The notes beneath the pieces are model-generated. The model worked only from the letters and a program-made list of their open reading frames with translations, made no database searches and was not told where the DNA came from. The position numbers and the translations under genes were made by a program. 58,540 bases of DNA from Desulfoscipio geothermicus DSM 3669 (GTDB lineage Bacteria; Bacillota; Desulfotomaculia; Desulfotomaculales; Desulfallaceae). The stretch is taken from assembly GCF_900115975.1 (NCBI RefSeq), contig NZ_FOYM01000019.1, positions 1 to 58,540 on the forward strand, read 5' to 3'. Of this stretch, positions 13,873-58,540 are shown piece after piece. How positions within the stretch are numbered: the stretch's first letter is position 1; every line of letters starts with the position of its first letter.

Positions 13873-14487
13873 TTAGTTTGATATTTGTCTGATATTTTTA
13901 TTTACCTGGAAATTGCCAACGCTGCCGGATTTGGCCACCAGTTCGGCGTCGGTGAACAGGGTGATGTTTTCCCGGCGCTTAACTTCGTCAACCAGTTGTT
14001 TGATTAAAAGCCGGCCGGTTTTGTCGTGGGGGTACATTTTGTTGAATCCCGCCACCCAACCGCCGGGAGCAGCGGATTTTTCGGCCAGCAGCACGGATAT
14101 GCCCAGGTCCGCCAGGCCGATGGCAGCCCGCAGGCCCGCAATACCCGCGCCCACCACCAATACTTTGGGCACGGTATCAATTACGATCGGTTCCAGCGGT
14201 TCGGTCAGGGCGGTGCGGGCCACGCCGGCCCTGACCAAACGCACGGCCTTTTCCGTCGCCCCGGCCCGGTCATCGGTATGGGTCCATGAGCACTGTTCCC
14301 GCACATTGACCTGGTTGTACCGGTAAGGGTTCAATCCCGCCCGTTTGGCCACTTCCCGAAAAGTAAACAAGTGCAGTTTGGGCGAACAGGAGGCCACCAC
14401 CAGGCCGTCCAGGTTTTGCTCCCGGATATCCTCGATCATCTCCTGCTGCGTGGCATCCGAGCAGGTGAACATGGCCGTTTTCAGCTA
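13873..14487 (-). pseudogene. Heterodisulfide reductase subunit A (HdrA) fragment
   Basis: About 200 residues of HdrA survive: FTCSDATQQEMIEDI, VVASCSPKLHLFTFREV, VNVREQCSWTH and the FAD-binding VLVVGAGIAGLRAA. Full HdrA proteins are 400-1000 residues and carry several CxxCxxC iron-sulfur motifs, which are absent here. Homology begins abruptly after a TAG about 15 nt upstream of the ATG at 14472, and ends in unrelated AT-rich sequence near 13905. Both ends are therefore truncated. It is the last of three broken minus-strand genes in a row. Confidence 0.75.
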
Positions 14488-17845: not shown

Positions 17846-19125
17846 CTACTGAAAACTCCGGATAAACATGGCCGCTTTTTCGCTGTCCAGAAAATCATGC
17901 ACATCTTCTATGCCAAGCTGCTTCAACAGTTCCATTACATATTTGTTGTCCACCGGGGTCAGGGACAGGGCCTCCTTACCGTACTCATCAACAAACTTCT
18001 GCCCCTCCCCGGGGTCAATCAGCACCCTGGGACCGCCCACGCATCCCCCGGGGCAACCCATGCCCTCCAGAAAATTGGCTTCCATTTTCCCTTCAAGAAC
18101 CTCATTCAGTATTTTTCGGCAGTCCTTGACACCGTCGGCCTGCACCGCCCTGATCTTGATTTCCCTGTCGGGCCGCAGCCTGTCCAGGGTATCGGAGATC
18201 GCTTTACTTACTCCCCCGGTCCGAGCATAAATCCTGCCGGCGGTGGAGGAATGTTCGCTGGGGTCTTCCTCCATTTCTTCCGGCTTGATGCCTACGGCCT
18301 CGAAAATTTGCTTCACTTCCTCAAAAGTCAGCACCGCATCCACCGCGTCCTTGATATCCTCTTCCTTGGCCTCCGCCTTCTTGGCTATACACGGGCCGAC
18401 AAAAACTACTTTGGCCCCGGGGTGCAAATGCTTGATGCCCCTGCCGCAGGCCACCATAGGCGACACCGAGGGTGATATATGGGGCACCAGGTCTTTGTAG
18501 ACCCGCTTGACCATGGAAACCCATATCGGACAACACATGCTGGTGAGCATGAAATCTTTTTCCCGGGTAACATGCCGTTCAAATTCCAACGCCTCTTTTA
18601 AAGTAAGTATGTCGGCAAAAAGGGCTACCTCCACCATGCCGTAAAAACCCAGCCTCTTAAATGCGGCCCGCATTTTCCCCGGCGTTACTCCGGAGCCAAA
18701 CTGACCGATAAAGGCGGGAGCCACAATGGCAAAAACAGGCACTTTGCGGTTTTTTAATAATTCAATAACCGGCACGAATTCTTTTTTATCCACCAAGGAA
18801 TAGTGTTTGCATACTTCCACGCATTTTCCGCACCCGGAGCAATTGTTGTGCTTGATAACAACATTACCCTCCATATCCCGGACAATGGCGTTAAACAAAC
18901 AGGACGCTTCGCAATTATCTTCGTTTTTCAAACTGCAGGAACCGTCACAGTCCTTTATCTTGAACACCACCCGGTTCGGGTCCCCGCCACCGGAAGCATA
19001 GCGAATATATTCATCCGTAAACCTGTCGCCTTCCCGCCGCATTTTATCAACTTCATCATCCATGTTCCCCCGGTAGGCCGATTTAACCAATTTTTTAAAA
19101 ACCTCATCATAACCTGGCTTGCTCA
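17846..19125 (-). CDS. [FeFe] hydrogenase, monomeric, two 4Fe-4S clusters
   Basis: The 426-residue enzyme has N-terminal Cys-rich clusters (CDGSCSLKNEDNCEASC and CSGCGKCVEVC, residues about 60-110), then the H-cluster domain. The three signature motifs are present: TSMCCPIW, FVGPCIAKKAE and EGMGCPGGCVGG. The variants SMCCP and GPCIAKK resemble the less-studied group B enzymes more than prototypical group A. No 2Fe-2S N-domain or NADH-binding partner is adjacent, so it probably works with ferredoxin as a soluble enzyme. A GTG at 19135 is possible, but the ATG at 19125 has AAGGTGG at the right distance. Confidence 0.87.
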
Positions 19126-38291: not shown

Positions 38292-38311
38292 ATAGAATCA
38301 GCCTGACAAAA

Positions 38312-38410
38312 TACCCCCTTTCCGCACCGGGAGGCGCAGCGGTTTCCCCCCGCACCCTGACGGCCCGGTTGCCATGGCACTGGAGCTTTAGGCAACCGGG
38401 CTCGGAGACT
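38312..38410 (-). ncRNA. Moco/Tuco riboswitch aptamer, proximal copy
   Basis: The minus strand starts TCTCCGAG and ends GCCTCCCGGTGCGGAAAG, the conserved ends of the MOCO RNA motif. A stem CCCGGTTGCC/GGCAACCGGG, the linker CGTCAGGG and a GAAA-capped hairpin lie between. A P3-type extra stem is not evident, which has been associated with tungsten-cofactor sensing. It is followed by a terminator and then tupA, so binding of cofactor presumably switches off tungstate uptake. Confidence 0.82.
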
Positions 38411-38434
38411 TTTTTAATTTACTTAGTTGCAAAA

Positions 38435-38470: not shown

Positions 38471-38495
38471 GGTCGTTTAATAATACTGACACGCC

Positions 38496-38594
38496 TTCTC
38501 CTTTCCGCAACGGGAGGCATACCGGTTTCCCAATATACCCTGACGGTTCAAGGCCATAACATTAAAGTCTGCAGGCTTACTGAACTCGGAGAAA
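38496..38594 (-). ncRNA. Moco/Tuco riboswitch aptamer, distal copy
   Basis: The minus strand starts TTCTCCGAGTTCA and ends GCCTCCCGTTGCGGAAAGG, closing with GGAGAA, so P1 is TTCTCC/GGAGAA. A stem GTTCA/TGAAC and a GAAA-tetraloop hairpin of about 10 bp (GGTATATTGG/CCGGTATGCC) match the MOCO RNA motif. CGTCAGGG is shared exactly with the proximal copy. No other gene is seen in 38595-38864, and a promoter for this transcript was not clearly identified. Confidence 0.82.
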
Positions 38595-38864
38595 TATGTA
38601 ATTTTGATTAAAATAACATTCTACTTAAAATAAATGATATCCTCCCTCCAGCCAAAAAAAATCAACGAAAGGCAATCTATTAATAAAATAACCGCAGTGC
38701 CCCGGAATAACCCCGGGCTTTATTTTCTGGTAAATATTAGTTGTCATTTTTGCCGACAGCAAGAGGAAATTTGACGACGCCTGGCGAATCGTTTGTGATA
38801 CAGAGCAAATTTTACGCAATTTGAATATTTGTTTACCTAATTAAGGGAGGAAATCAAAATATCA

Positions 38865-48886: not shown

Positions 48887-49330
48887 CAGTAAGATGAATT
48901 CTGTGTCCCCCTTGAAAGTGGTGATTTTACCCCTAATACTTGATTAAGTGTGTTTCTCTTTCCCCGACCGGGCTTGATTCTGACGTCTAGCATGTTCGCC
49001 TAATCGGCAGTTCTGATCAAGGTGAGGCTGTTTAAGCCCGGGGGAGTGGTGTTATCGGGCTCTATTGGGCGTTGTCACAATCTTGCCGTAGTATTTATAA
49101 TGGTTCCTGGGTAAGTTGGTAAATTCTCATAAACCCGTGCAGTTTAGACTGCTGTGTTAAGTATGTTTCTTTTCCGCCTGCGTAAGAGCTCTCACACCTA
49201 GCCTGTTCGGCATGGCAGTTGGCCTGGATGGCAGCAGGTCCAGGTGGTCTCCCGCTCCATGTCAGTTCTGATAGCGAGTATGAGTCAGGCGTAGGGAACG
49301 GAAAAGGTAAATCCACTTACCAGAGGTGTA
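48887..49330 (+). repeat. Imperfect tandem duplication in the IS110 leader (bridge RNA candidate)
   Basis: TTAAGTGTGTTTCTCTT (48944-48960) recurs as TTAAGTATGTTTCTTTT (49157-49173), and CTAGCATGTTCG with a following GGCAGTT (48987-49012) as CTAGCCTGTTCGGC (49198-49220). Offsets are 213 and 211 bp, and both units open with GGGTAA. IS110 elements use a non-coding bridge RNA from such an end region to choose target and donor sites, so a doubled or degenerated bridge RNA locus is plausible. Confidence 0.45.
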
Positions 49331-49332
49331 CC

Positions 49333-50558
49333 ATGACAATACCGTTATATGTCGGCGTCGATATTGGCAAAGCTAAGAATGTAGCTTGCTTCATGGGTCC
49401 GGACGGGACGGTACTTATTAAAAAGACCACCTTCGACAACTCCCTGACAGGTGCCCAACAGCTGGTAGCAAAGGCCAAAGAGCTATTAGCCAAGGAAGGT
49501 TGTGACCACCCGGTTTTCGGGGTGGAAGCTACATCCTTTTACCACTTCCATTTGATGAACTTTATCTTGAATGCCGAAGAACTCAAGCCATACCGGCCAA
49601 CGGTCTACCAGCTCAACGCCAGGAACATCAAGAATTTCAAGAAGTCTTATACCCCACGGGGAAAGAACGATGCTTATGACGCCTTTGTTATTGCTGATAA
49701 TTTAAGATTCGGCAGGTTACCCAAACCCTATGAGGTTGATGAAATGTATCTTCCGCTGCAGCGGTTGACCCGCTATAGGTTCCACTTGGTGGGTTCTTTG
49801 ATCCGCGAAAAAAGTTATTTTTTAACCATCTTATTTTTGAAGTTCAGTAATTACGGTGATGTATTCAGTGATGTCTTTGGGGCTACCAGTCGCTCGCTAA
49901 TCACTGATTTTTACAGCCCTGAGGAGATTATCAATACTCCCCTTGAGGATATGGTCCAGTTCCTTGTGGATAAAGGACATAACCATTTTGCTGAACCTGA
50001 ACAGCTGGCCAAGGAACTCAAACGCATTTCCCGGGAATCTTACCGGTTACAACCCAGGCTTACAGATTCAGTGAATCTGATCCTGGAAACCAGCATGAAC
50101 AACATCCGGTTCTTCGAGCAAAGCATTCGCAAGATAGAGATGTGATTAACCGGGATATGGCCAAGCTCGCTAATCCCTTGGAGTCGGTGCGTGGTATTGG
50201 GCCTGTGTACTCTGCCGGTATCATTGCCGAGATTGGTGATATTACCAAGTTTGACAGCCAGGCCAAGTTGGCCAAATATGCCGGCCTTACCTGGAATAGT
50301 AATCAATCCGGTGATTTTGAGGGTGAAGATGAGCCCCTCAATAGAGCCGGCAACCGTTACCTTAGATATTATCTGATAGAAGCCGCGGACAGCTTAAGGA
50401 GACACAATGATGAGTACCGGGCTTATTATCAGAAAAAGTACCTTGAGGCCGCTAAACACGCCCACAAAAGAGCATTGGTACTCACGGCCAGAAAGTTGGT
50501 GAGGCTGGTGTTTGCCTTACTTTCAAAAAACCAGCTTTACCGACCGGACAAGGGTTAA
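49333..50558 (+). pseudogene. IS110 transposase split by a frameshift
   Basis: The ATG at 49333 has AGAGGTG upstream. The N-terminal DEDD RuvC-like domain is intact (YVGVDIGKAKNVACF, FGVEATSFYHFH, RGKNDAYDAFVIADNL). At about 50140 the frame hits TGA after SIRKIEM. The C-terminal Transposase_20 domain continues one frame away from 50142 (LESVRGIGPVYSAGIIAEIG, YAGLTWNSNQSG, NRAGNRYLRYYLIEAA). A single indel separates the halves, so unless frameshifting occurs, active recombinase is not made. Confidence 0.85.
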
Positions 50559-50902
50559 GGTGTTTTCCCACAAACTGTGGTAATTATGCTGGGTAATATG
50601 GCCACAGTTGCCTGCTGCCTGCTGTATTGGGTATATTAGCCATCATGGTTATCTACAGTACAGGTAAAAGAAAGGTGATGGCATGGAGTATATCATGTTT
50701 ACCGGGATTGGTTTTCCCTGGACTTTTCCCGGTACCGGGAAAAGCTAAATGGTTTTCCCAGCTGCTCAGGGACCCTAAATTTAGTACCACGGCAGGGATA
50801 TGGGCAAATCCCTACGGCGGTCTGGCTTTTTGCGCCCAAATTGAAGGGGAAGTGTTTCCTCTTGACATATTACCCTAGCACTTTAATCAATTAATTAGAA
50901 TT
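50559..50902. other. IS110 right tail and short gap
   Basis: An 83-codon frame (50627-50878) crosses this stretch but lacks a ribosome binding site and recognisable domain. It reads through the conserved-looking end of the insertion sequence, so it is taken as non-coding tail. Confidence 0.4.
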
Positions 50903-51742
50903 CTAGACAAAATCAATTTTTATTGATGAATATTGGATCATGTGATCAGAATCGCCATAAAAATCGCTGTTAGATATTTGGGTGCCATATTCAGCAGCCG
51001 CAGTTACAATATGAATGTAAGGAAAATATTCATGGTTGGGTTGTAAGGTTGCAGTTATTACGTGATTAATATTGCCATTTAGAGTTTTGCTAATATTGTT
51101 AGTAGATGATGCGCTAGCTACTGTTTTGGAATCAATCCAAACTCCATCTGTAGCATCCCACAATTTAATCTTAACTTCGGCAGAGGCACTTCCATTAATA
51201 CCCCCAACCATATCACCTTTGTAAATACCAGAAAATATAATTTGGGCCGTTTTAGAAGTTGTTCCTTGAGTTATGAATCTTTGACCAACAAAAGCATAAG
51301 CATCAGCAGTACCCCAACCTCCTGCCCATGAATTAGCTTCTGCTTTCCTGCTTGAAACCGTATATCTGTGCCATACAGCTCCAGCACCACTTGTTGAACC
51401 ACCATCATCGCCATCGTCGGCTGTGGTTAATGTTTTATCAGTTCCAAGAGTAACGGTCACCGGTGACATGATGATAACTTGACCTTCATCTATATTCTGT
51501 TCATCGTTAAATAATTCTTTAAGTTCAGTTTCTTCTACTGTTTCCAAATTTTTTATACTTAATTTGTTTTGCATATTTGCTTTCTCGATCAATTCTGGAT
51601 TGGGTGTCTCTTGGATAGTGGAATTATATTTTACTATCTCACTTACAGATTTAGGCATGTTATCAATACTTGCGTATGCTATTGAACCCAAGGTTAAGCA
51701 AAAAGCAATAACCAAACTAATAACTAATGGAACTTTTTTCAT
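50903..51742 (-). CDS. Secreted beta-rich protein, unknown, quorum-sensing controlled
   Basis: The 279-residue precursor has a signal peptide (residues 1-25, cleavage after AYA), an acidic Glu/Asp-rich pro-region (about 26-95), a DDGDDGG linker and a Thr/Ser/Gly-rich C-terminal half with aromatic residues (WHRYTVSSRKAEANSWAGG) that looks like a beta-sandwich. No cysteines occur after the signal peptide. No family is recognised. GGGAGG precedes the ATG. Transcription starts about 345 nt upstream, from a LytTR-controlled promoter, and the leader carries structured RNA copy A. It lies directly downstream of the agr-like genes, so it is probably an exported effector. Confidence 0.75.
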   Translation of the reverse strand: MKKVPLVISLVIAFCLTLGSIAYASIDNMPKSVSEIVKYNSTIQETPNPELIEKANMQNKLSIKNLETVEETELKELFNDEQNIDEGQVIIMSPVTVTLGTDKTLTTADDGDDGGSTSGAGAVWHRYTVSSRKAEANSWAGGWGTADAYAFVGQRFITQGTTSKTAQIIFSGIYKGDMVGGINGSASAEVKIKLWDATDGVWIDSKTVASASSTNNISKTLNGNINHVITATLQPNHEYFPYIHIVTAAAEYGTQISNSDFYGDSDHMIQYSSIKIDFV

Positions 51743-51844
51743 TTTTTTCCTCCCTCAATATTTTATAGTTGAGCTTGTAAAAAATAGATTTGACTTCCTA
51801 CTAATAGTCAGACAGACTCGTCCTCCACTTCTTCTGTTTTAAAT

Positions 51845-51992
51845 AACACCTCCTTCTAAGTTGTAGATTTAGAAGAAAGGTGGCAGCCATTGAAAATCAC
51901 CATCCCCGGTAGTATATAATAATTCCAAAGGTAAGGTGGATTTTCCCATATCGGACCTATTGCGAGGGGCTCGATTTGGTGGATACCACCTT
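51845..51992 (-). ncRNA. Conserved structured leader RNA, copy A
   Basis: This lies in the 5' leader of the 279-residue secreted protein. AAGGTGG (51986-51992) pairs with CCACCTT opposite 51877-51883. TGGTATCCACCA (51977-51988) can form a hairpin that overlaps that stem by three bases, so the two may compete. GAAAATCCACC pairs with GGTGATTTTC. CTTCTAA/TTAGAAG (51853-51859, 51869-51875) has conserved arms but a changed loop relative to copy B. The pair T51980-A51985 is C-G in copy B, a compensatory change. A ribosome-binding-like GGAGGTG borders the last hairpin, with no convincing short frame after it. Confidence 0.65.
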
Positions 51993-52093
51993 ATTCTCAT
52001 TTATTTATTTAAACTTTTTGATTAATTGTAGGATAACATTCTCGCAGCGAGAAAAATCGCAGTTGATTTTGTACTAGTTTACGGTGTGCTCTC

Positions 52094-52122
52094 ATTTTAT
52101 CCACCATAAAACACCAAGTCAA
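52094..52122 (-). promoter_or_regulatory. Promoter of the secreted protein gene
   Basis: On the minus strand TTGACT and TAAAAT are 17 bp apart. The last LytTR repeat ends 5 bp upstream of the -35, a usual place for an activator. Transcription would start near 52087. Confidence 0.75.
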
Positions 52123-52127
52123 CCAAT

Positions 52128-52197
52128 CTTGTCTAGAAAGTGGATATCCTTGTCTGAAAACAGCTTTTGGTTGTCTGGATTTTCCGTTGTCTGAAAG
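52128..52197 (-). promoter_or_regulatory. LytTR (AgrA-type) direct-repeat operator
   Basis: On the plus strand the core TTGTCT begins at 52129, 52150 and 52171 (21-bp period), and a fourth lies 16 bp further. On the minus strand these read AGACAAG-type boxes. The 21-bp spacing equals two helical turns and is the known AgrA/LytTR geometry. The same array is found before agrC, the sigma-like gene and the Cys-rich gene. Confidence 0.8.
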
Positions 52198-52206
52198 TAC
52201 TACAAC

Positions 52207-52242
52207 GAAAAAAGAGGGTCGCATTTTAGCGAACCCTCTTTA
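52207..52242 (-). terminator. Terminator of the agr operon
   Basis: GAGGGTTCGC and GCGACCCTC arms are followed on the minus strand by TTTTTTCG. It directly follows the response-regulator stop codon and separates the agr operon from the secreted-protein promoter. Confidence 0.8.
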
Positions 52243-52243
52243 A

Positions 52244-53000
52244 TTAGCTTGGCAGTGCCATTATTTTTTCCAGTTTCCCGGCTTTGTTTGCGGCCAGTAT
52301 TGCCGTTTGCCTTGTGCCGGAAAAAGTTATTTCATAGCCGTTTTTACCCCAGGGGTGGATTTCCCTGATCATATTCAGATTAACAATATAAGCCCGGTGG
52401 GAGCGGAAAAAGGTATTGCCGGTCAGCCTTGCCTCGATGCTGTTCAGGCTTTCATTGATGCTGTATTTTTCTTTGCCGGTAATGATGATGGTTTTGCGCT
52501 TTTCCCTGGTGATAAAGATAATGTCTTGGGTATCCAAAAAGATTAGCTTTTCGTTCTGTTTAACAACAAGCCTGGCGGGGCATGTTTCCCCGGTAGCAGG
52601 TGGAGCAGAGCGGTTTGTTGGAACCGACGACCTTTGCGCCTCCTGTCGCTTTTTTTCTTTCCATGGTCTTTTTTATGCGGTCCAGTTTAAAGGGTTTGAC
52701 CAGGTAGTCGTAAGCATAAACTTCAAAAGCTTCGTGGGTATGGTTATCGTAGGCGGTGGCAAAGATTAGGATGGTTTGGGGATTGATGTCGCCAATTTCC
52801 CTTGCCAGTTCCACGCCGTTTTTCCCCGGCAGGTCAATGTCGATAAAGACTACCCTGGGATTTAGTTTTTCCACCAGTTTTAATGCTGTAATACCGTCGC
52901 TGGCTTCTCCCAACACTTCCACGTCCGGGATTTTTGACAGTGTCTCTTTGAGTACATGGCGCATGGCCGGGTCGTCTTCGGCAATGATGACCGAGAGCAT
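52244..53000 (-). pseudogene. agrA: AgrA-like LytTR response regulator, frameshifted at an A7 run
   Basis: The receiver domain (52560-53000) starts LSVIIAEDDPAMRHVL, has the phospho-acceptor Asp54 in FIDIDLPG and Lys in YLVKPF. After MERKK the frame leaves the linker and stops. The LytTR DNA-binding domain (52244 to about 52560) follows in the next frame: LVVKQNEKLIFL, FFRSHRAYIVNL, IREIHPWGKNGYEI. Removing one A from the seven at 52650-52656 joins them into a 251-residue AgrA-like protein. The break could be a real mutation, a sequencing error or slippage. The ATG at 53000 has AAAGG 12 nt upstream. If restored, it binds the direct repeats described here. Confidence 0.85.
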
Positions 53001-53042
53001 GTCAAAACACAAACCTTTCTATCGGCATATTTTTTTACCGGC

Positions 53043-53168
53043 TTATTTCTTCACGGGCGGCTCCGGCTGGTACAAGGTAAAAAAGCTGGCCTGTTTAATG
53101 CCGATGCCGGCTATGATCAAGGCGGTCAAAATTACCGGGGTGTAAAGCAACTTCTTCAATAAACGCAC
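53043..53168 (-). CDS. agrD: AgrD-like cyclic autoinducer peptide precursor
   Basis: The 41-residue peptide has a basic N-terminus, a hydrophobic amphipathic helix (TPVILTALIIAGIGI), then ASFFTL followed by the conserved recognition tail YQPEPPVKK. The YQP-type tail is typical of clostridial AgrD. The start GTG at 53168 is 6 nt after GGGAGGTG. No Cys is present; Ser28 (in ASFFTL) would therefore form a lactone instead of a thiolactone, with the ring presumably Ser28-Leu32. The gene overlaps the end of agrB by 74 bp. It encodes the signal that AgrB processes and AgrC senses. Confidence 0.82.
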   Translation of the reverse strand: MRLLKKLLYTPVILTALIIAGIGIKQASFFTLYQPEPPVKK

Positions 53169-53808
53169 TTGTTTCACCTCCCTTGCCCGCAAGTTTGGCC
53201 ATTAACCCGTCGGCACGGGCCACCAGCCCGTAACCCCACGGGGTAAAGCTTATGGTTTGCATGGCCAGGGCCAAAAGAGCGGCTAGGTAAAGGGAATAGT
53301 TTGCTTTGTCTACAAAGAATAAAATAAGCCCAGCCCATAAAAACAGGTACAGCAAGGACAATGCTTTAAACGTATTTATTTCCCGGCGTGCCATGGCGCG
53401 GTAAGGTACTTCCCCGGGTGCCCACTTAACGGTGCAGGCGGTCGCCACAAGGATGAGAATTCCGGCCATGGCTTTATACCATTGTAAAGTTATAAGATTG
53501 GCCATGTTTACCGCCGCCAGGCCAATAAATAGGTATACCGTCACCCCCAGGACCAGGCACCGCCAGTAACCGGTGCAGTGGGCGCCGCCGCTCAGCAGGC
53601 GAAACAGGCCGCCGGCGGCCAGCGCCAGGGCTACCTGGGGCAAAACATTGAACAGGTAAGCCAGGGAAAAAAGTAGCGCTCCCTTGATTAATGTCCCCAG
53701 AATTATTTCCAGTCCATAGCGCAATTGGTCTGTTTTATCCTTCTCCAGGCCGGACGCTTGCGTCATATGTGCGGCTATGACACCGGCCAGTTTGTTTAAA
53801 TCGATCAT
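53095..53808 (-). CDS. agrB: AgrB-like peptide processing and export membrane protease
   Basis: The 237-residue polytopic membrane protein has about six hydrophobic segments. The conserved LSGGAHCTGYWRC places the catalytic His77 and Cys84, the same numbering as in S. aureus AgrB. It cyclises and cleaves AgrD. The ATG at 53808 follows GGGAGAGG; the earlier in-frame start at 53874 would extend into agrC. The gene overlaps agrC by 74 bp and agrD by 74 bp. Confidence 0.9.
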   Translation of the reverse strand: MIDLNKLAGVIAAHMTQASGLEKDKTDQLRYGLEIILGTLIKGALLFSLAYLFNVLPQVALALAAGGLFRLLSGGAHCTGYWRCLVLGVTVYLFIGLAAVNMANLITLQWYKAMAGILILVATACTVKWAPGEVPYRAMARREINTFKALSLLYLFLWAGLILFFVDKANYSLYLAALLALAMQTISFTPWGYGLVARADGLMAKLAGKGGETSAFIEEVALHPGNFDRLDHSRHRH

Positions 53809-55171
53809 GCCCTCTCCCGGCTCCTTGATTCGGTATATGCACCGAAAAAATCGTTTCACCGCCGGCATGTTCAACGGTTAACCGGCCCGAGTACTTGTCC
53901 ACGATTTCTTTTACAATGGTCAGTCCCAATCCCTGGTTGCTTTTCTTGGTGCTGTAGTGTAGTTCGCACATGCGGTCCCGTGTTTCAGGCGGGATTGGGT
54001 CACCCGTATTGGCCACGGTGAAAATATATTCCCCCGGTTCTCTGGTAATTTCCAGTCTTACGGAGCGGTGCGCCCCTGTATAAGCAGCCGCTGCCTCGAT
54101 GGCGTTGTCCAGCAGGTTTCCCAACAGTGAGTTGGCCTCCATGGTGCTTAAAGGTACACTTTGCAGGCTGCAGTCCATTGAAACGCTAAAAGGTATGCCC
54201 CGGGCTTCGGCCTGGCCCGCCTTGGCAAACAGCATGGCGCTGATACCGGGATTGTCGGTTTTAACCACTTCCGCCGGGTTGGAAATGTCTAAAAACATTT
54301 GTTTCACGTAATCACGGGCTTTATCGCAGGAGCCGACCTCCAAAAGCCCGTAAACCGCCTGCAGGTGGTGGTTGAAGTCATGTCGCTGCTTTCTAATGGT
54401 TTTGATTAACTTGTCCAGGTGGACGATGGTTTCCCCGGCTTGACGGGCCTCAAGTTCTTTTTCTTTTAAGATGGATATTTTTGTTAACACGCCCATGGAT
54501 AACACTGTTATGGTAATAAGTATCAAGCCAAATGAGGCTGCAAACAGGTGAAAATATTTACTAGGCAAGGCACCGGTTTGAGAAACGAACAGCACAATAT
54601 TTAATACGGCCAACATCAGTACGGGCAATAACACCAGTATATACAAGTTCAAATACGCATTTTCGGTCTTTTTTGCAATGCCATCTTTGGAAGCCCGGTC
54701 TTTTAGTTCACCGGCAAAGTCCAGCAGGTGAAAATTATAGCGCCGGCAGGCAATGATAAACAATAAGATAATAGACGCTTCCGTCAGAAAAGCGCCAATA
54801 CGCATGCCATCCCTGCTCAAAATCTCCGGCAAAGAATAACCGGTAATGCTTAATAGCGGGGGTATAATGGCGGCATCCAGCGTCCCGTATATCACAAGAC
54901 CAAGCAAAGCGATAATGGCAACCCTACGCAAAGGTATGCCGGTGACGAACCGGATAATCAGTATATAAATGGCAATCTGTACCAGGCTGTGCAGCCCGAA
55001 AGGTATGGAAGACAGCCTGATGAAATACGAAGATGCCGTTTGGGCCATACCGGTTATTATTAACTGGCGTGGCGTTATGCCAAGGCCCGCCAGTTGAAAC
55101 CCCAGCATGGTCACCAGCAGCGCTTCGGGCAACGAGACCAAAAGCAACGTAAGCAACGACATTCTGTCCAA
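53735..55171 (-). CDS. agrC: AgrC-like sensor histidine kinase
   Basis: The 478-residue protein has seven or so membrane segments in its first 230 residues, then a cytoplasmic kinase with the H-box KQRHDFNHHLQAVYGL near residue 265 and an ATPase domain with NLLDNAIEAA and STKKSNQGLGLTIVKEI (GHKL/HATPase_c_5). It presumably binds the cyclic peptide and phosphorylates the AgrA-like regulator. TTG at 55171, with GGGAGG 9 nt upstream, is the start; the ATG four codons later is too far. A LytTR array lies 49 bp upstream, consistent with autoactivation, although no good -35/-10 follows it. Confidence 0.9.
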   Translation of the reverse strand: MDRMSLLTLLLVSLPEALLVTMLGFQLAGLGITPRQLIITGMAQTASSYFIRLSSIPFGLHSLVQIAIYILIIRFVTGIPLRRVAIIALLGLVIYGTLDAAIIPPLLSITGYSLPEILSRDGMRIGAFLTEASIILLFIIACRRYNFHLLDFAGELKDRASKDGIAKKTENAYLNLYILVLLPVLMLAVLNIVLFVSQTGALPSKYFHLFAASFGLILITITVLSMGVLTKISILKEKELEARQAGETIVHLDKLIKTIRKQRHDFNHHLQAVYGLLEVGSCDKARDYVKQMFLDISNPAEVVKTDNPGISAMLFAKAGQAEARGIPFSVSMDCSLQSVPLSTMEANSLLGNLLDNAIEAAAAYTGAHRSVRLEITREPGEYIFTVANTGDPIPPETRDRMCELHYSTKKSNQGLGLTIVKEIVDKYSGRLTVEHAGGETIFSVHIPNQGAGRGHDRFKQTGRCHSRTYDASVRPGEG

Positions 55172-55219
55172 GGCGTTTTACCTCCCGGTTCTTGCAAGAG
55201 AACCAATATTCCTTTCCAG

Positions 55220-55273
55220 CTTGTCCGAAAAGTGCTTTTGGTTGTCTGAAAAGTGGATATGCTTGTTTGAAAA
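55220..55273 (-). promoter_or_regulatory. LytTR direct-repeat operator upstream of agrC
   Basis: Three boxes, CTTGTCCGAAAA (55220), GTTGTCTGAAAA (55241) and CTTGTTTGAAAA (55262), have an exact 21-bp period and the same orientation relative to agrC as the operator before the secreted-protein gene. A canonical -35 is missing at the expected place, so expression may rely on the activator. Confidence 0.78.
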
Positions 55274-55371
55274 TTCGACCCCTTAAATGAACGGTTGCAC
55301 TGGTAAATTTTTAACATATTTCAACATAAATGCCAACAATCCTTTTTTTATTGCGTTATAACTTGATTGTG

Positions 55372-55458
55372 TTCAGACATGCAAATACCGGTTTTAGACA
55401 ACGATATACCCTTTTCAGACAAGAATAATGGACATATAGCAATTATTAGTAATATAAT
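55372..55458 (+). promoter_or_regulatory. LytTR operator and promoter of the sigma-factor-like gene
   Basis: AGACA-type boxes at 55374 (CAGACATG), 55395 (TAGACAAC) and 55416 (CAGACAAG) have a 21-bp period. Five bp after the last box is TGGACA (55429-55434), then 18 bp, then TATAAT (55453-55458). The box-to--35 distance of 5 bp is the same as in the secreted-protein promoter. The leader to the ATG at 55559 is about 93 nt. Confidence 0.78.
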
Positions 55459-55558
55459 AGGTATATTGGGGGACATTAACAAGATTCAAAATAAATGCAG
55501 GAAATGGTTTTCCAGTTTAACATCCGTTTTGGAGAAAGCATTGAAAGGATTAATAGGA

Positions 55559-56008
55559 ATGATTATGCCGGAAAAGGGAAGTTTGGTAGGCGACCTGGAC
55601 CAGTTAATCATTCAAGTTTATACCGCCGGTTATTATCTGACCGGGTGCCGGGAGAAGGCGGAACGTTTATGCGCCCTGGTTTTCGATAAATATGACCGGC
55701 CTGGTTTGGGGACGCATGAAAACCTGGTGTGGCCTTTATTTTGCCACATTTTCCTGCAGTGTTGCGATGAGCAAGAGGAAATTGGTGGGAATACCGGTTC
55801 CCAGTCGGACTTGTTGCCTGGTGCGGAAGCGATACAGAGAGCTTTACTGGAGTTGCCACCCGGGGAAAGGATGGCGGTGATTCTCAAGTATAAGGCGGGT
55901 ATGGATGGCGAGACCATCGCTAGGTGCATGGATTGCTCGATAAGCCGCGTTTCACGGTTGCTGGCGGCGAGGAAGGAAAAATTGCGCAGGAAATGCTTTG
56001 GCCAATGA
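55559..56008 (+). CDS. ECF-type sigma-factor-like protein
   Basis: The 149-residue protein has a degenerate region-2-like helix (QVYTAGYYLTGCREKAERLC, residues about 17-36) and a clearer region-4 helix-turn-helix: ALLELPPGERMAVILKYKAG followed by IARCMDCSISRVSRLLAARK. It is shorter than usual ECF factors (170-190 residues) and may be a sigma-related regulator or atypical sigma factor. The frame is open back to 55367, but that part is operator and promoter. The ATG at 55559 is preceded by AAAGGA; a second ATG is at 55565. It is divergent from agrC and has its own LytTR-controlled promoter, so it probably relays the quorum signal. Confidence 0.7.
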   Translation: MIMPEKGSLVGDLDQLIIQVYTAGYYLTGCREKAERLCALVFDKYDRPGLGTHENLVWPLFCHIFLQCCDEQEEIGGNTGSQSDLLPGAEAIQRALLELPPGERMAVILKYKAGMDGETIARCMDCSISRVSRLLAARKEKLRRKCFGQ

Positions 56009-56117
56009 ACCTCCTCCTAGACAAGCCCGGGGGGTTCCAAGGTGGTCGAGTAGAGGTATGCCTCGCGGCACACCCCTATCACAGAACCGTACTTGCGCAA
56101 TTAACGCATACGGCTCC

Positions 56118-56822
56118 TCACCGAAGCATTACCGAAATGTACCCTGAAGGCAGCCGAACAGTTTCGTTGACAATTCGTTCCACCTGATTTCTTTTATCAA
56201 AAAGTTGGGGCAGGTTTTCGAGCACTTCTTTTTTCCAATTCTTTAACTGATTTGCAATGCTCTTTGTATTACCGGTGATCCCTGTGGCGGTGTGTATCTT
56301 TAGCTCGGCCTTGCCCCTTGCTCCCGGGAATTTTTCGGCTAATTTATCATGCAGCCTGATAATTGTGCCATCCGCCACTATCAGGTCCTTGAAACCTTTC
56401 AGTTTATCTGAAAGCGTAAGACTGGTGTGGCTGGAAAGCTCTGCTATCCCGTGCGCCAGACACTCTTTAAGAAAGGCGACCAGCTCGTTATTGAAGCGAT
56501 CGTAAAATGATGATGTCACAAGTGTTTCAGCCGATGCGGTCTTGTAAGCCCTTCTTAATGAGGCGAGGGTGCGCTGCATTCCAACTCCAAAGCCGAGCAC
56601 TACGACCCAGAAAAAGATGACCGGGTCGATCTTCCGGTTGCGCTGGACGTAACCGACTTTGGCTGCTGTACCTCTCAGCCACTCCGGGGCAAACATCTTG
56701 TTTAAAACGTTTTCAATCTCATTCGGATTAATTTTCTGGTAACCGGAGCCAATGTGGAACCTCCTCGTAAACATTATTTGGAGAAGAGTTCCACAATCAA
56801 TGGGGTTCATTCCTTCTTCCAT
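56118..56822 (-). pseudogene. IS4-like transposase remnant with internal deletion
   Basis: The 234-codon frame retains the N-terminus of an IS4-type DDE transposase (FVVLGFGVGMQRTLASLRRA-like, VADGTIIRLHDKLAEKFPGARG, LKIHTATGITGN). The DDE core after residue 180 is missing and the frame passes directly into a C-terminal tail. Intact members are about 400 residues. The start at 56822 lacks a good ribosome binding site. It lies 110 bp downstream of, and convergent to, the sigma-like gene. Confidence 0.7.
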
Positions 56823-56989
56823 AGAGCAATTTCAACAATTTTCGTTAGCCATTTTCCAGGAGGGAAATGCTACTCCTGGTTGATTATGGTATATTTAGTG
56901 CTTAACCGAACACCAATGCAGCCTTTCTAGACCACCATTATGGTGTTTCAATTGATATAAGGATCGGTTAAGCAAGCCCTAACTAAGTT

Positions 56990-57202
56990 CTAAACTTTTC
57001 GAAGAAACTCTTTTATTAAAACTAATATCTCGTTAAATTTTGCTTCTATGTTATCCAGTTTTTTAATAATTTCCTTTCTTTGTAAGGTAGCATTATAATG
57101 ATTATTAATCCAAGCCTTAACAAGTCTATATATTAAAAATATGATCAGTAATAAAACTAAAACATTTAACAGTTGAGCCAATAATGTGGCATTAAATTCC
57201 AT
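56990..57202 (-). CDS. Small membrane protein with coiled coil, DUF4083-like
   Basis: The 70-residue protein has one strongly hydrophobic helix (LLNVLVLLLIIFLIYRLV, residues about 11-28) and a charged C-terminal coiled coil (IKKLDNIEAKFNEILVLIKE). GGGGTGA precedes the ATG. The layout resembles DUF4083-type Firmicute proteins. It may belong to the minus-strand group downstream of the Cys-rich gene. Confidence 0.6.
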   Translation of the reverse strand: MEFNATLLAQLLNVLVLLLIIFLIYRLVKAWINNHYNATLQRKEIIKKLDNIEAKFNEILVLIKEFLRKV

Positions 57203-57367
57203 ATCTTCACCCCTAAATGTTATTTTACCTTAAATTGATGAGTTTTTTTATTAAAATGAGCTACAAGGAATCACCTTGCAGCTCATTGCATAGGTTTAAT
57301 GGAATACTGTTGTATAGCCCTCTAAGTTAATTTCTTGAATATAGTACCTCATTAGTTCACTGTTAAC

Positions 57368-57434
57368 AAGCAACAACTCCGATTGGGGAAGGGATGAAAA
57401 AAAGCCGTAGTTAAACTTTTTTTATACTTGTTAT
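57368..57434. repeat. Direct repeat shared with 46936-46997
   Basis: ACTCCGATTGGGGAAGGGA and AAAAAAAGCCGTAGTTAAAC match the segment before the truncated transposase at 47 kb with only a few changes. Here no transposase follows, so it is a solo copy, possibly an insertion-sequence end. Confidence 0.5.
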
Positions 57435-57475
57435 TGTGCGTTCATTTTATACACTATAAGCGTTGCTTTATTTTT

Positions 57476-57613
57476 TTAACCCCTTATCTTTTTCAATAAA
57501 TCTTGAAAAAAATCCACAAAATTTATGCCATAACGATTTATAATATTTGTGATAATTCTTATAATTATTATATTGATAAACATAATAATTATAATTTTAA
57601 ATATTAAATCCAT
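57476..57613 (-). CDS. Tiny hydrophobic membrane peptide
   Basis: The 45-residue peptide has an Ile-rich helix (IFKIIIIMFINIIIIRII, residues about 4-21) and a short polar tail. AAGGAC lies 8 nt upstream of the ATG. It begins 104 bp beyond the Cys-rich gene's stop on the same strand, so it may be its immunity or export accessory protein. No family is recognised, and the low complexity makes the call tentative. Confidence 0.45.
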   Translation of the reverse strand: MDLIFKIIIIMFINIIIIRIITNIINRYGINFVDFFQDLLKKIRG

Positions 57614-57717
57614 ATCTTTTGTCCTTAAATTTTATTTGTAAAAGATTACTTACACATTGTTACGATGCAAAATCCAGATCAACCATTGAACTAATTCAAG
57701 CTTATTCAATTTATCCA

Positions 57718-58320
57718 TTATATTCGATAATACTTCCTTTGACGGTGGGAGTGATGTTCCACATAACCTATCAAACATCCAAGACATACCGAGCAACCAT
57801 AGGGGTTACCTCCAAACAAACAGGCACCACATCCTGCATCACACAAAAATTGAAGCCAACCTGGCAGATCTTCAAAATTGATTGTAATACAATCTTGAAC
57901 ACAATCCCAGTCGCAATCAAATGCTTGTATTTGAACACTATCATCGTTTTCAACTTGTTTAATTTGACCTTTAATAACATCAACTAATTTGCCTTTATCA
58001 TAAGAAGCCTTTGCAAGAAGATTACCATTTTTATCGTAATAAGCCAAAGTACCAGCTAATTTCTTTTCTGTATCTTTCTGAACATAATGAAGTTCAGATT
58101 TTATATAAAAACTGCAAAAAATATCCTTATCAGGTTTATAGTAAATCGCGTATTTAACGTAAGGGTCTTTGGTTGAAAGCACAACCCCTTTTACTTCAAG
58201 ATCCTTATAAGAAAAAATATCTACTTGATTCCAAATTATATCTTTATCTTTAAAAATTTTAGTTTGTTTTAAATTTTTTATAATTGATTTTGTATTATTG
58301 TGCTTTATTTTATCCACCAT
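57718..58320 (-). CDS. Cys-rich putative antimicrobial precursor (halocin C8-like tail), 5' end disturbed
   Basis: The product ends in about 65 residues with nine Cys: FDCDWDCVQDC, then LCDAGCGACLFGG and YGCSVCLGC. Before it is a hydrophilic domain with AYYDKNGNLLAKASYDKGK. The pattern resembles the Cys-rich C-terminal part of halocin-C8-type bacteriocins. The only ATG (58320) lies inside the promoter spacer, upstream of the -10 element, so the true start is unclear or the 5' end, perhaps with a signal peptide, was lost when the promoter segment was duplicated. Promoter and LytTR operator are the same as for the secreted protein at 51742, so quorum control is expected. Confidence 0.6.
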   Translation of the reverse strand: MVDKIKHNNTKSIIKNLKQTKIFKDKDIIWNQVDIFSYKDLEVKGVVLSTKDPYVKYAIYYKPDKDIFCSFYIKSELHYVQKDTEKKLAGTLAYYDKNGNLLAKASYDKGKLVDVIKGQIKQVENDDSVQIQAFDCDWDCVQDCITINFEDLPGWLQFLCDAGCGACLFGGNPYGCSVCLGCLIGYVEHHSHRQRKYYRI

Positions 58321-58410
58321 AAAACACCAAGTCAACCAATCTTGTCTAGAAAGTGGATATCCTTGTCTGAAAACAGCTTTTGGTTGCCTGGATTTTCCGT
58401 TGTCTGAAAG
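58307..58410 (-). promoter_or_regulatory. Second copy of the LytTR-controlled promoter
   Basis: TTGACT and TAAAAT (minus strand, 58307-58335) are 17 bp apart. LytTR cores begin at 58342, 58363 and 58384 (21-bp period; the last has one change) plus one 16 bp further. The whole stretch is a near copy of 52094-52197. Confidence 0.75.
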
Positions 58411-58420
58411 TACTACAACG

Positions 58421-58455
58421 AAAAAAGAGGGTTGCATTTTAGCTAACCCTCTTTA
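58421..58455 (-). terminator. Terminator, second copy
   Basis: GAGGGTT...AACCCTC hairpin with a T-run on the minus strand. Arms differ from the 52207-52242 copy at two positions while a stem is retained. Confidence 0.75.
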
Positions 58456-58456
58456 A

Positions 58457-58540
58457 TTACCATGGCAGTGCCATTATTTTTTCCAGTTTCCCGGCTTTGT
58501 TTGCGGCCAGTATTGCCGTTTGCCTTGTGCCGGAAAAAGT
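58457..58540 (-). CDS. LytTR response regulator, C-terminal end of a second copy (partial)
   Basis: The last 27 codons of a LytTR regulator, FSGTRQTAILAANKAGKLEK to MALPW-stop, run off the window edge. They differ from the copy at 52244 almost only in the last residue. A second agr module presumably continues beyond the window. Confidence 0.8.
   Translation of the reverse strand, partial: TFSGTRQTAILAANKAGKLEKIMALPW

Follow-up and report, generated by a model that had tools for sequence, protein, structure and literature searches.

Through which DNA sites might an agr-type peptide signalling system of a spore-forming anaerobe act on its own genes and on its targets, and which promoters do these sites serve? 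The question is raised by the window analyzed here, the whole stretch of 58,540 nucleotides (positions 1-58540) of contig C32 (NZ_FOYM01000019.1) of Desulfoscipio geothermicus DSM 3669 (assembly GCF_900115975.1, 3.65 Mb in 83 contigs). It harbors agrC, agrB, agrD and agrA genes in one stretch, and four arrays of direct repeats, designated A1 to A4, lie beside them. We consider it likely, judging from their sequence and position, that these arrays are AgrA-type LytTR operators of the adjacent agrCBDA system and that they serve both sigma-A promoters and promoters resembling those of sigma-H. LytTR repeat operators are already known; the main new point is the box-to-promoter geometry of the two classes.

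Arrays of LytTR-type boxes

Boxes of the type TTTYAGACAA are arranged head to tail with a 21-bp period at four places in the window (Table 1). They form direct repeats of about 9-10 bp upstream of a promoter. In the available portions of three publications, repeats about 21 bp apart directly upstream of the -35 element are described as the standard for LytTR activators (PMC6193735, PMC2766830, PMC4227749). A box matrix was built from boxes of the genomes G007, G048, G071 and G091 only, none being taken from the window genome. With this foreign matrix the triples of A1, A2, A3 and A4 scored 41.4, 49.6, 48.2 and 35.8 bits, respectively; when the whole window was dinucleotide-shuffled 100 times, the best triple reached 18.2 bits. 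The four AGACAA-type arrays reported in a preliminary description of the sequence were thus recovered at their places. The exact 21-bp period claimed there holds for three boxes per array, but in A1 and A4 the outermost box lies only 16 bp from its neighbor.

The regions 52094-52327 and 58307-58540 share 98% identity over 234 nt. This repeat covers the array with its promoter, a hairpin followed by a T run, and a portion of agrA. A1 and A4 are therefore not independent, and to judge from this identity A4 is a recent copy of A1. Hence the local regulon of four LytTR arrays that had been proposed is one of three independent arrays plus a duplicate. Because the arrangement is conserved across relatives, its interpretation as a set of operators for the LytTR domain, forming a local agr-linked regulon with predicted binding, is strongly supported. 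Directly after the A4 repeat, on contig C32 past the window (L010 1542-1641), 100 N interrupt the duplicated agrA end and probably represent a scaffold gap.

Two classes of promoter downstream of the boxes

A generic promoter scan of 50800-58540 showed no enrichment (17 found, 17.0 expected), so that the evidence lies in where a promoter stands with respect to the box. The -35 elements at A1, A3 and A4 start 6 nt past ACAA, or 5 past ACAAG. This agrees with the preliminary description, which had noted at three arrays a -35 element 5 bp on, with correct spacing to a -10. The best sigma-A -35 was located at offset 6 in all 14 non-agrC sites scored (12 of the effector class and two before a sigma-like gene), with spacers of 16-18 bp to the -10. 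Thirteen of these sites had a shuffle p of at most 0.02, the G070 site one of 0.124, and 11 of the 14 were first found by their boxes alone. By eye, TNGACA at offset 6 was also seen in nine further sites of a matrix scan of 44 long, partly overlapping loci (530,540 bases).

The array before agrC, A2, does not fit this pattern: no sigma-A promoter was found at A2 in promoter scoring, and the promoter there is sigma-H-like, with the look of a stationary-phase promoter. For comparison, 150 genomes were searched and loci were obtained for 30 of the best agrC matches; the 27 with the N-terminus were used, and L067, L075 and L080 were dropped. A significant box pair (21-bp spacing, p <= 0.02) was present in 17 of the 27 upstream regions. 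The tetranucleotide AGGA occurs exactly 7 nt past the last box in 16 of these 17 sites and 6 nt past it in one, with 0.3 expected per offset. The 17 sites represent five families (f1, f5, f8, f9 and f12) with AgrC proteins 32-81% identical to that of the window, and some of them are close pairs. Among the ten non-significant upstream regions, L061 carries AGGA at 7, L070 has the same AGGA layout by eye (the script picked another pair) and L074 shows AGGT in the AGGA position; the remaining seven have neither the box-AGGA layout nor AGGT.

A sigma-H consensus RNAGGAWWW - N11-12 - RNNGAAT is given for Listeria in the part of the source available (PMC4754846), as is a similar one for Clostridioides difficile in an excerpt of another (PMC11139204). 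Scored against the listerial consensus, the -35 fitted best at offset 5 in 15 of 17 agrC sites and at offset 4 in two, with p <= 0.05 in 14 of the 17. The rows of this scoring are the significant agrC sites minus L082, plus L061; they were anchored on AGGA, which makes the count of AGGA offsets over the agrC upstream regions the independent test. The window agrC promoter matches the consensus at 9 of 9 positions of the -35 and 5 of 7 of the -10. A seven-pair hairpin (55187-55204) overlaps this -10 and the leader. A pattern of one box plus AGGA, searched in 113 genomes of Desulfotomaculales including the window genome (the set used for all order-wide searches), gave 24 matches compared to 7 in the control and is too weak alone.

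The motif AGGAATWN14-15GAATW yielded 394 matches in 16 genomes of the family versus 74 in the reversed control. For 30 loci with this motif, a simple rule gave a gene in 18. By eye some of these genes resemble hpf, minC, zapA and sleB, and hpf and minC are sigma-H targets in Bacillus subtilis. The dnaJ, thiolase, trigger-factor-like and recombinase genes behind the same motif lend no support to sigma-H.

Boxes, spacing and promoter-like sequences are thus directly visible and conserved. As the sigma-A -35 is found at offset 6 at the targets and AGGA at offset 7 at agrC, autoinduction of agrC probably needs AgrA with sigma-H, and the targets AgrA with sigma-A. The following sequence of events can be proposed. 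A peptide derived from AgrD, probably a serine-lactone autoinducing peptide, would activate AgrC, which would phosphorylate AgrA. AgrA would then bind three head-to-tail boxes, 21 bp apart and on one helix face, and the last AgrA molecule would touch RNA polymerase at the -35 region. At sigma-A promoters, with the -35 six nt past the box, this would lead to secreted proteins and a sigma factor like those of extracytoplasmic function (ECF). At the sigma-H-like promoter, with AGGA seven nt past the box, it would lead to agrC and the signalling operon. Binding, phosphorylation, the use of sigma-H and activation rather than repression are inferred here from the arrangement of the DNA.

State of the locus and alternative explanations

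No intact AgrA with joined receiver and LytTR parts is encoded in the window genome. In the window assembly agrA is split between two frames, and a single frame is present in G007, G091 and G048. Either a true lesion or a mistake in the assembly may explain the split. As agrA lies in two frames, function in the window genome is uncertain and the circuit there may be off or decaying. The 5'-truncated look of the A4 target and lesions of other kinds in two close relatives likewise speak against a working regulon in this genome.

The arrays could accordingly be relics, with the agr lineage decaying in the family and the operators dead in this strain, which we regard as possible but somewhat doubtful. 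Apart from the split agrA, remains of agr genes point in this direction: contig C71 keeps 99 bp of agrC joined to the 3' end of agrA, and no agrB match separates agrC from the directly following agrA in G007 (L084 8536-10699). In G001 two matches begin at the same point of the contig, about base 1145-1151: that to agrC sets in at residue 133-135, that to the sigma-like protein at its residue 5. G001 thus lacks the initial portion of agrC together with the operators between the two genes. However, the boxes and spacings of the window deviate little from the foreign consensus, the receiver and LytTR halves otherwise match their families well, and a frame change in a single assembly is possibly a sequencing error. 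The regulon is well supported as a design; its function in this strain is not.

It is unlikely that agrC is transcribed from a common sigma-A or ECF promoter, the reader of which might be the adjacent sigma-like factor; AGGA would then be a Shine-Dalgarno sequence of the leader or the site of a second regulator. In favor of this, AGGA coincides with a Shine-Dalgarno core, GGAAT has the look of an ECF -35 and the sigma-like gene is divergent from agrC. Nevertheless, the sigma-A score reached p <= 0.05 in only 2 of 17 agrC sites, and no start codon at a fixed distance past AGGA was seen by eye. In 11 of the 17 sites NAAT occurs 21 or 22 nt past the AGGA start, where the sigma-H consensus predicts it. 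Moreover, close relatives of the sigma-like gene were found in only 3 of the 113 genomes (the window genome, G007 and G001), each time beside agrC, and the AGGA layout also exists in genomes without this gene. The sigma-like factor was therefore rejected as reader of the agrC promoter.

That the regulator blocks transcription and the boxes are repressor sites is very improbable: Staphylococcus aureus AgrA can repress one promoter when bound downstream of it (PMC4227749, consulted in part), but the scored sites precede the -35 by a distance like that of activator sites, as described in partial texts on the LytTR Regulatory Systems (LRS) and sil systems (PMC6193735, PMC2766830).

The interpretation of the arrays as operators of the agr system with two promoter classes has to be balanced against several observations that count against it. 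To the split agrA and the AGGA-anchored scoring is added that the staphylococcal AgrA and AgrC equivalog models stayed far under cut-off (AgrA 14.1 bits against 400, AgrC 59.7 against 500), and that among solved structures the LytTR half brought up just a single other LytTR protein, 3d6w. A significant box pair is absent in 10 of the 27 agrC upstream regions, shuffles were mononucleotide in the agrC-upstream pair tests and in promoter-class scoring, and the window -10 CAAGAAC deviates from RNNGAAT. At L101 14139, L133 and L134 the search pattern had already fixed TGGT at and before the -35 start. No clear intact gene follows the G091 arrays at 14139 and 18327. Finally, the related genomes are not independent of each other.

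Arrays in the genome and in related genomes

The preliminary description had suggested scanning the genome with the 21-bp repeat model. A strict two-box pattern gave five matches in the whole genome and none in the reversed control. All of them fell into arrays: A1 had two overlapping matches, and A3, A4 and C71 a single one apiece; A2 was missed. A looser 21-bp pattern gave 25 matches compared to 13 in the control and included A2 without mismatch. Seven of its eight matches with 0-1 mismatch are located on C32 or C71, and the eighth (C28) lies in no obvious promoter. With a period of 20 as control, 14 chance-like matches were obtained (own control 5), and a very strict box pattern gave no match in the genome.

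The C71 array (L012) belongs to a 441-bp stretch 84% like window 52078-52512, comprising array, promoter and agrA 3' end, and the 99 bp joined to it resemble an internal segment of agrC at 88%. The genes that follow in this orientation encode a Cys-rich protein that looks secreted, a bPH_5 protein and one whose weak VKOR match stays under cut-off. The first, short frame behind this array (L012 4777-4959) ends after a signal-peptide-like stretch (AYAD) and is perhaps a truncated target. A 94-amino-acid stand-alone LytTR protein is encoded on contig C66 (L014 8645-8929), by eye close to a Fur-like gene.

Order-wide, the sigma-A class pattern (boxes plus approach to the -35, one mismatch) was found at 12 sites in 5 of 113 genomes, with none in the reversed control: three each in G000 and G048, four in G091 and one each in G071 and G070. 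Eleven belong to the C71 remnant or share a contig with agr genes, from which they are no more than about 13 kb away; the G070 site lies on a contig other than that of its agr locus. In the long-locus matrix scan, further arrays close to agr genes came up in G038, G036 (two), G034, G003, G093, G032 and G018, and G071 proved to have a second array. In G093 (L096 2991-3086) agrA is followed by five boxes with a 21-bp period, with TAGACA 6 nt on. In G032, which has a different agr gene order, a pair (L098 2621, about 2590-2640) precedes the agrB match, with AGGA 7 nt on by eye. G007 L084 is a possible listener without its own signal; G007 also has a second, full agr locus (L094).

Pairs of at least 14 bits were also found in loci of unrelated organisms (L121, L122, L127, L129 and L130), and two pairs in relatives (L092 178 and L097 6527) fit neither promoter class, which shows that a pair alone is no proof. 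A database-wide DNA pattern returned 18 stretches, of which three are agr loci (Desulfofundulus thermobenzoicus twice and a Desulfovirgula metagenome-assembled genome) and 15 stem from unrelated hosts. We did not retain the notion of an agrA tail at each extra array: such tails were seen beside A4, C71 and the G091 array at 18327, and searching the G048 stretch gave a single LytTR match.

Whether one LytTR operator design feeds two holoenzymes in Desulfotomaculales is in our opinion evenly balanced. AgrA with sigma-H would then serve signal and receptor, and AgrA with sigma-A the secreted targets and the ECF-like sigma factor. Autoinduction would be an AND gate tied to the transition phase, and targets would be exchanged as operator-carrying cassettes, sometimes with the agrA 3' end.

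Target genes

Signal peptides, Shine-Dalgarno sequences and several -35 elements were judged by eye. From the preliminary description, the secreted protein behind A1, agrC and the sigma-like factor were retained as targets, but not the putative Cys-rich antimicrobial behind A4. Its open frame reads through its own promoter, near which neither a Shine-Dalgarno sequence nor a signal peptide was seen, and the remaining 112 genomes of the order gave no homologue at E <= 0.001. The fold model of the 279-amino-acid A1 target is of low confidence (mean 45.2). Its leader of about 350 nt (51743-52093, from promoter to gene) has repeated GGTGG/CCACC and a possible 43-amino-acid frame; it gave no Rfam match at gathering scores.

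The A3 target has, according to its structural model, an ECF-like sigma fold (AlphaFold mean predicted local distance difference test 75.5; match to SigW with a template modelling score of 0.72 at 15% identity). Region 4 is recognized by Pfam PF08281, region 2 by fold only. Distant relatives with 26-32% identity occur in five more genomes.

A first or second gene with a signal peptide is located behind the sigma-A arrays of window A1, C71, G048, G070, G091 (5436), G038, G093 and G032. G048 has three arrays, one of them followed by a gene for a thioredoxin-like membrane protein and then one for a DUF2599 protein, and the G091 5436 target is weakly NlpC/P60-like. Exceptions are G034, G003 and G036 with a gene for a membrane protein, a second G036 array and G091 8421 with one for a small membrane protein, and G071 with a radical-SAM-like frame. 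At the G071 3030 and G018 arrays the region runs to the contig end. No mutual likeness among the secreted targets was apparent by eye from unaligned sequences.

An IS4-family transposase fragment (56118-56822; NF033592, 87.2 bits, cut-off 115) lies between the sigma-like gene and the A4 target, and two adjacent frames near the A1 target (49219-50558) look by eye like a split IS110-type transposase. Tandem Moco riboswitch aptamers (Rfam RF01055) are located at 38299-38419 and 38481-38603 on the minus strand; besides these, Rfam gave nothing at gathering scores in the whole window.

Table 1. Features of the agr region and its box arrays (window coordinates).
Feature	Position	Strand	Description and basis
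Array A1	52129..52197	-	Boxes 52129, 52150, 52171 at 21 bp; fourth box 52187 at 16 bp
Array A2, before agrC	55221..55273	-	Boxes 55221, 55242, 55263, 21 bp
Array A3, before sigma-like gene	55370..55422	+	Boxes 55370, 55391, 55412, 21 bp
Array A4	58342..58410	-	Boxes 58342, 58363, 58384 (degraded), plus 58400; A1 duplicate, third box changed
Sigma-A type promoter of A1	52094..52122	-	-35 TTGACT (52117-52122), 17 bp, -10 TAAAAT (52094-52099)
Sigma-H-like promoter of agrC	55188..55215	-	-35 AAAGGAATA (55207-55215), 12 nt, -10 CAAGAAC (55188-55194)
Sigma-A type promoter of A3	55429..55458	+	TGGACA, 18 bp, TATAAT
Sigma-A type promoter of A4	58307..58335	-	TTGACT, 17 bp, TAAAAT; copy of A1 promoter
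agrC sensor kinase	53735..55171	-	TTG start; PF14689, PF14501, PF02518; comparison with relatives
agrB	53095..53874	-	PF04647, 113 bits; real start probably inside
agrD	53043..53168	-	Serine-type ring region ASFFTLYQPEPP; GTG start chosen from relatives; TIGR04223, 24.2 bits (cut-off 19)
agrA receiver half, separate frame	52560..53012	-	PF00072; frame comparison with relatives
agrA LytTR half, open frame	52244..52672	-	PF04397
Hairpin and T run between agrA and A1	52211..52241	-	Likely agrA terminator; fold -19.1 kcal/mol over 52195-52250
A1 target, 279 amino acids	50903..51742	-	Signal peptide by eye; no family over cut-off
Sigma-like gene	55559..56008	+	ATG chosen by eye (AAAGGA before); PF08281; model and fold match to SigW
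Open frame behind A4	57718..58312	-	Cys-rich C-terminus, probably 5'-truncated; open reading frame inspection, homologue search

Comparison with known systems

Literature searches on agr with sigma-H, on agr in Desulfotomaculum or Pelotomaculum and on LytTR with SigH did not reveal this arrangement among the matches listed, nor did the available part of PMC12323615. Likewise, no published agr regulon for Desulfotomaculales-type spore formers was among the matches listed. If true, the interpretation would supply a rule by which agr regulons can be read from the sequence in a large group of spore-forming anaerobes; one activator would serve two sigma factors via a fixed distance to the -35, and peptide signalling would be linked with entry into sporulation. 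The secreted targets found by this rule, mostly of unknown function, would be candidates for density-dependent antagonism.

Staphylococcal agr shares with the system described here the set of AgrC, AgrB, AgrD and AgrA, the LytTR regulator and, in the part of PMC4227749 available, direct repeats before the signalling operon (P2) and an effector promoter (P3). It differs from the window system, in which the gene order is CBDA, AgrD is of the serine type, three TTTCAGACAA-type boxes are present, the targets are secreted proteins and an ECF-like sigma gene, agrC has a sigma-H-like promoter and the equivalog models remain far under cut-off.

The repeats of the LRS (HdrRM, BrsRM) of Streptococcus mutans are 12 bp apart and 4-11 bp before the -35, with positive feedback, as far as PMC6193735 was available. 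These systems employ a membrane inhibitor protein, whereas a histidine kinase and a receiver domain are present here. Streptococcal Sil likewise has a peptide-controlled LytTR regulator, with 10-bp repeats and an 11-bp spacer before the promoter according to the accessible part of PMC2766830. The system described here is set apart from Sil and from ComE/ComX by its agr-type cyclic peptide machinery, ECF-like sigma fold and three boxes. A sigma factor as target is a likeness to ComE/ComX. The phr pheromone genes of B. subtilis are sigma-H dependent, so that there, too, signal genes are read by a transition-phase sigma factor, but they have no LytTR operator and belong to a different signal family.

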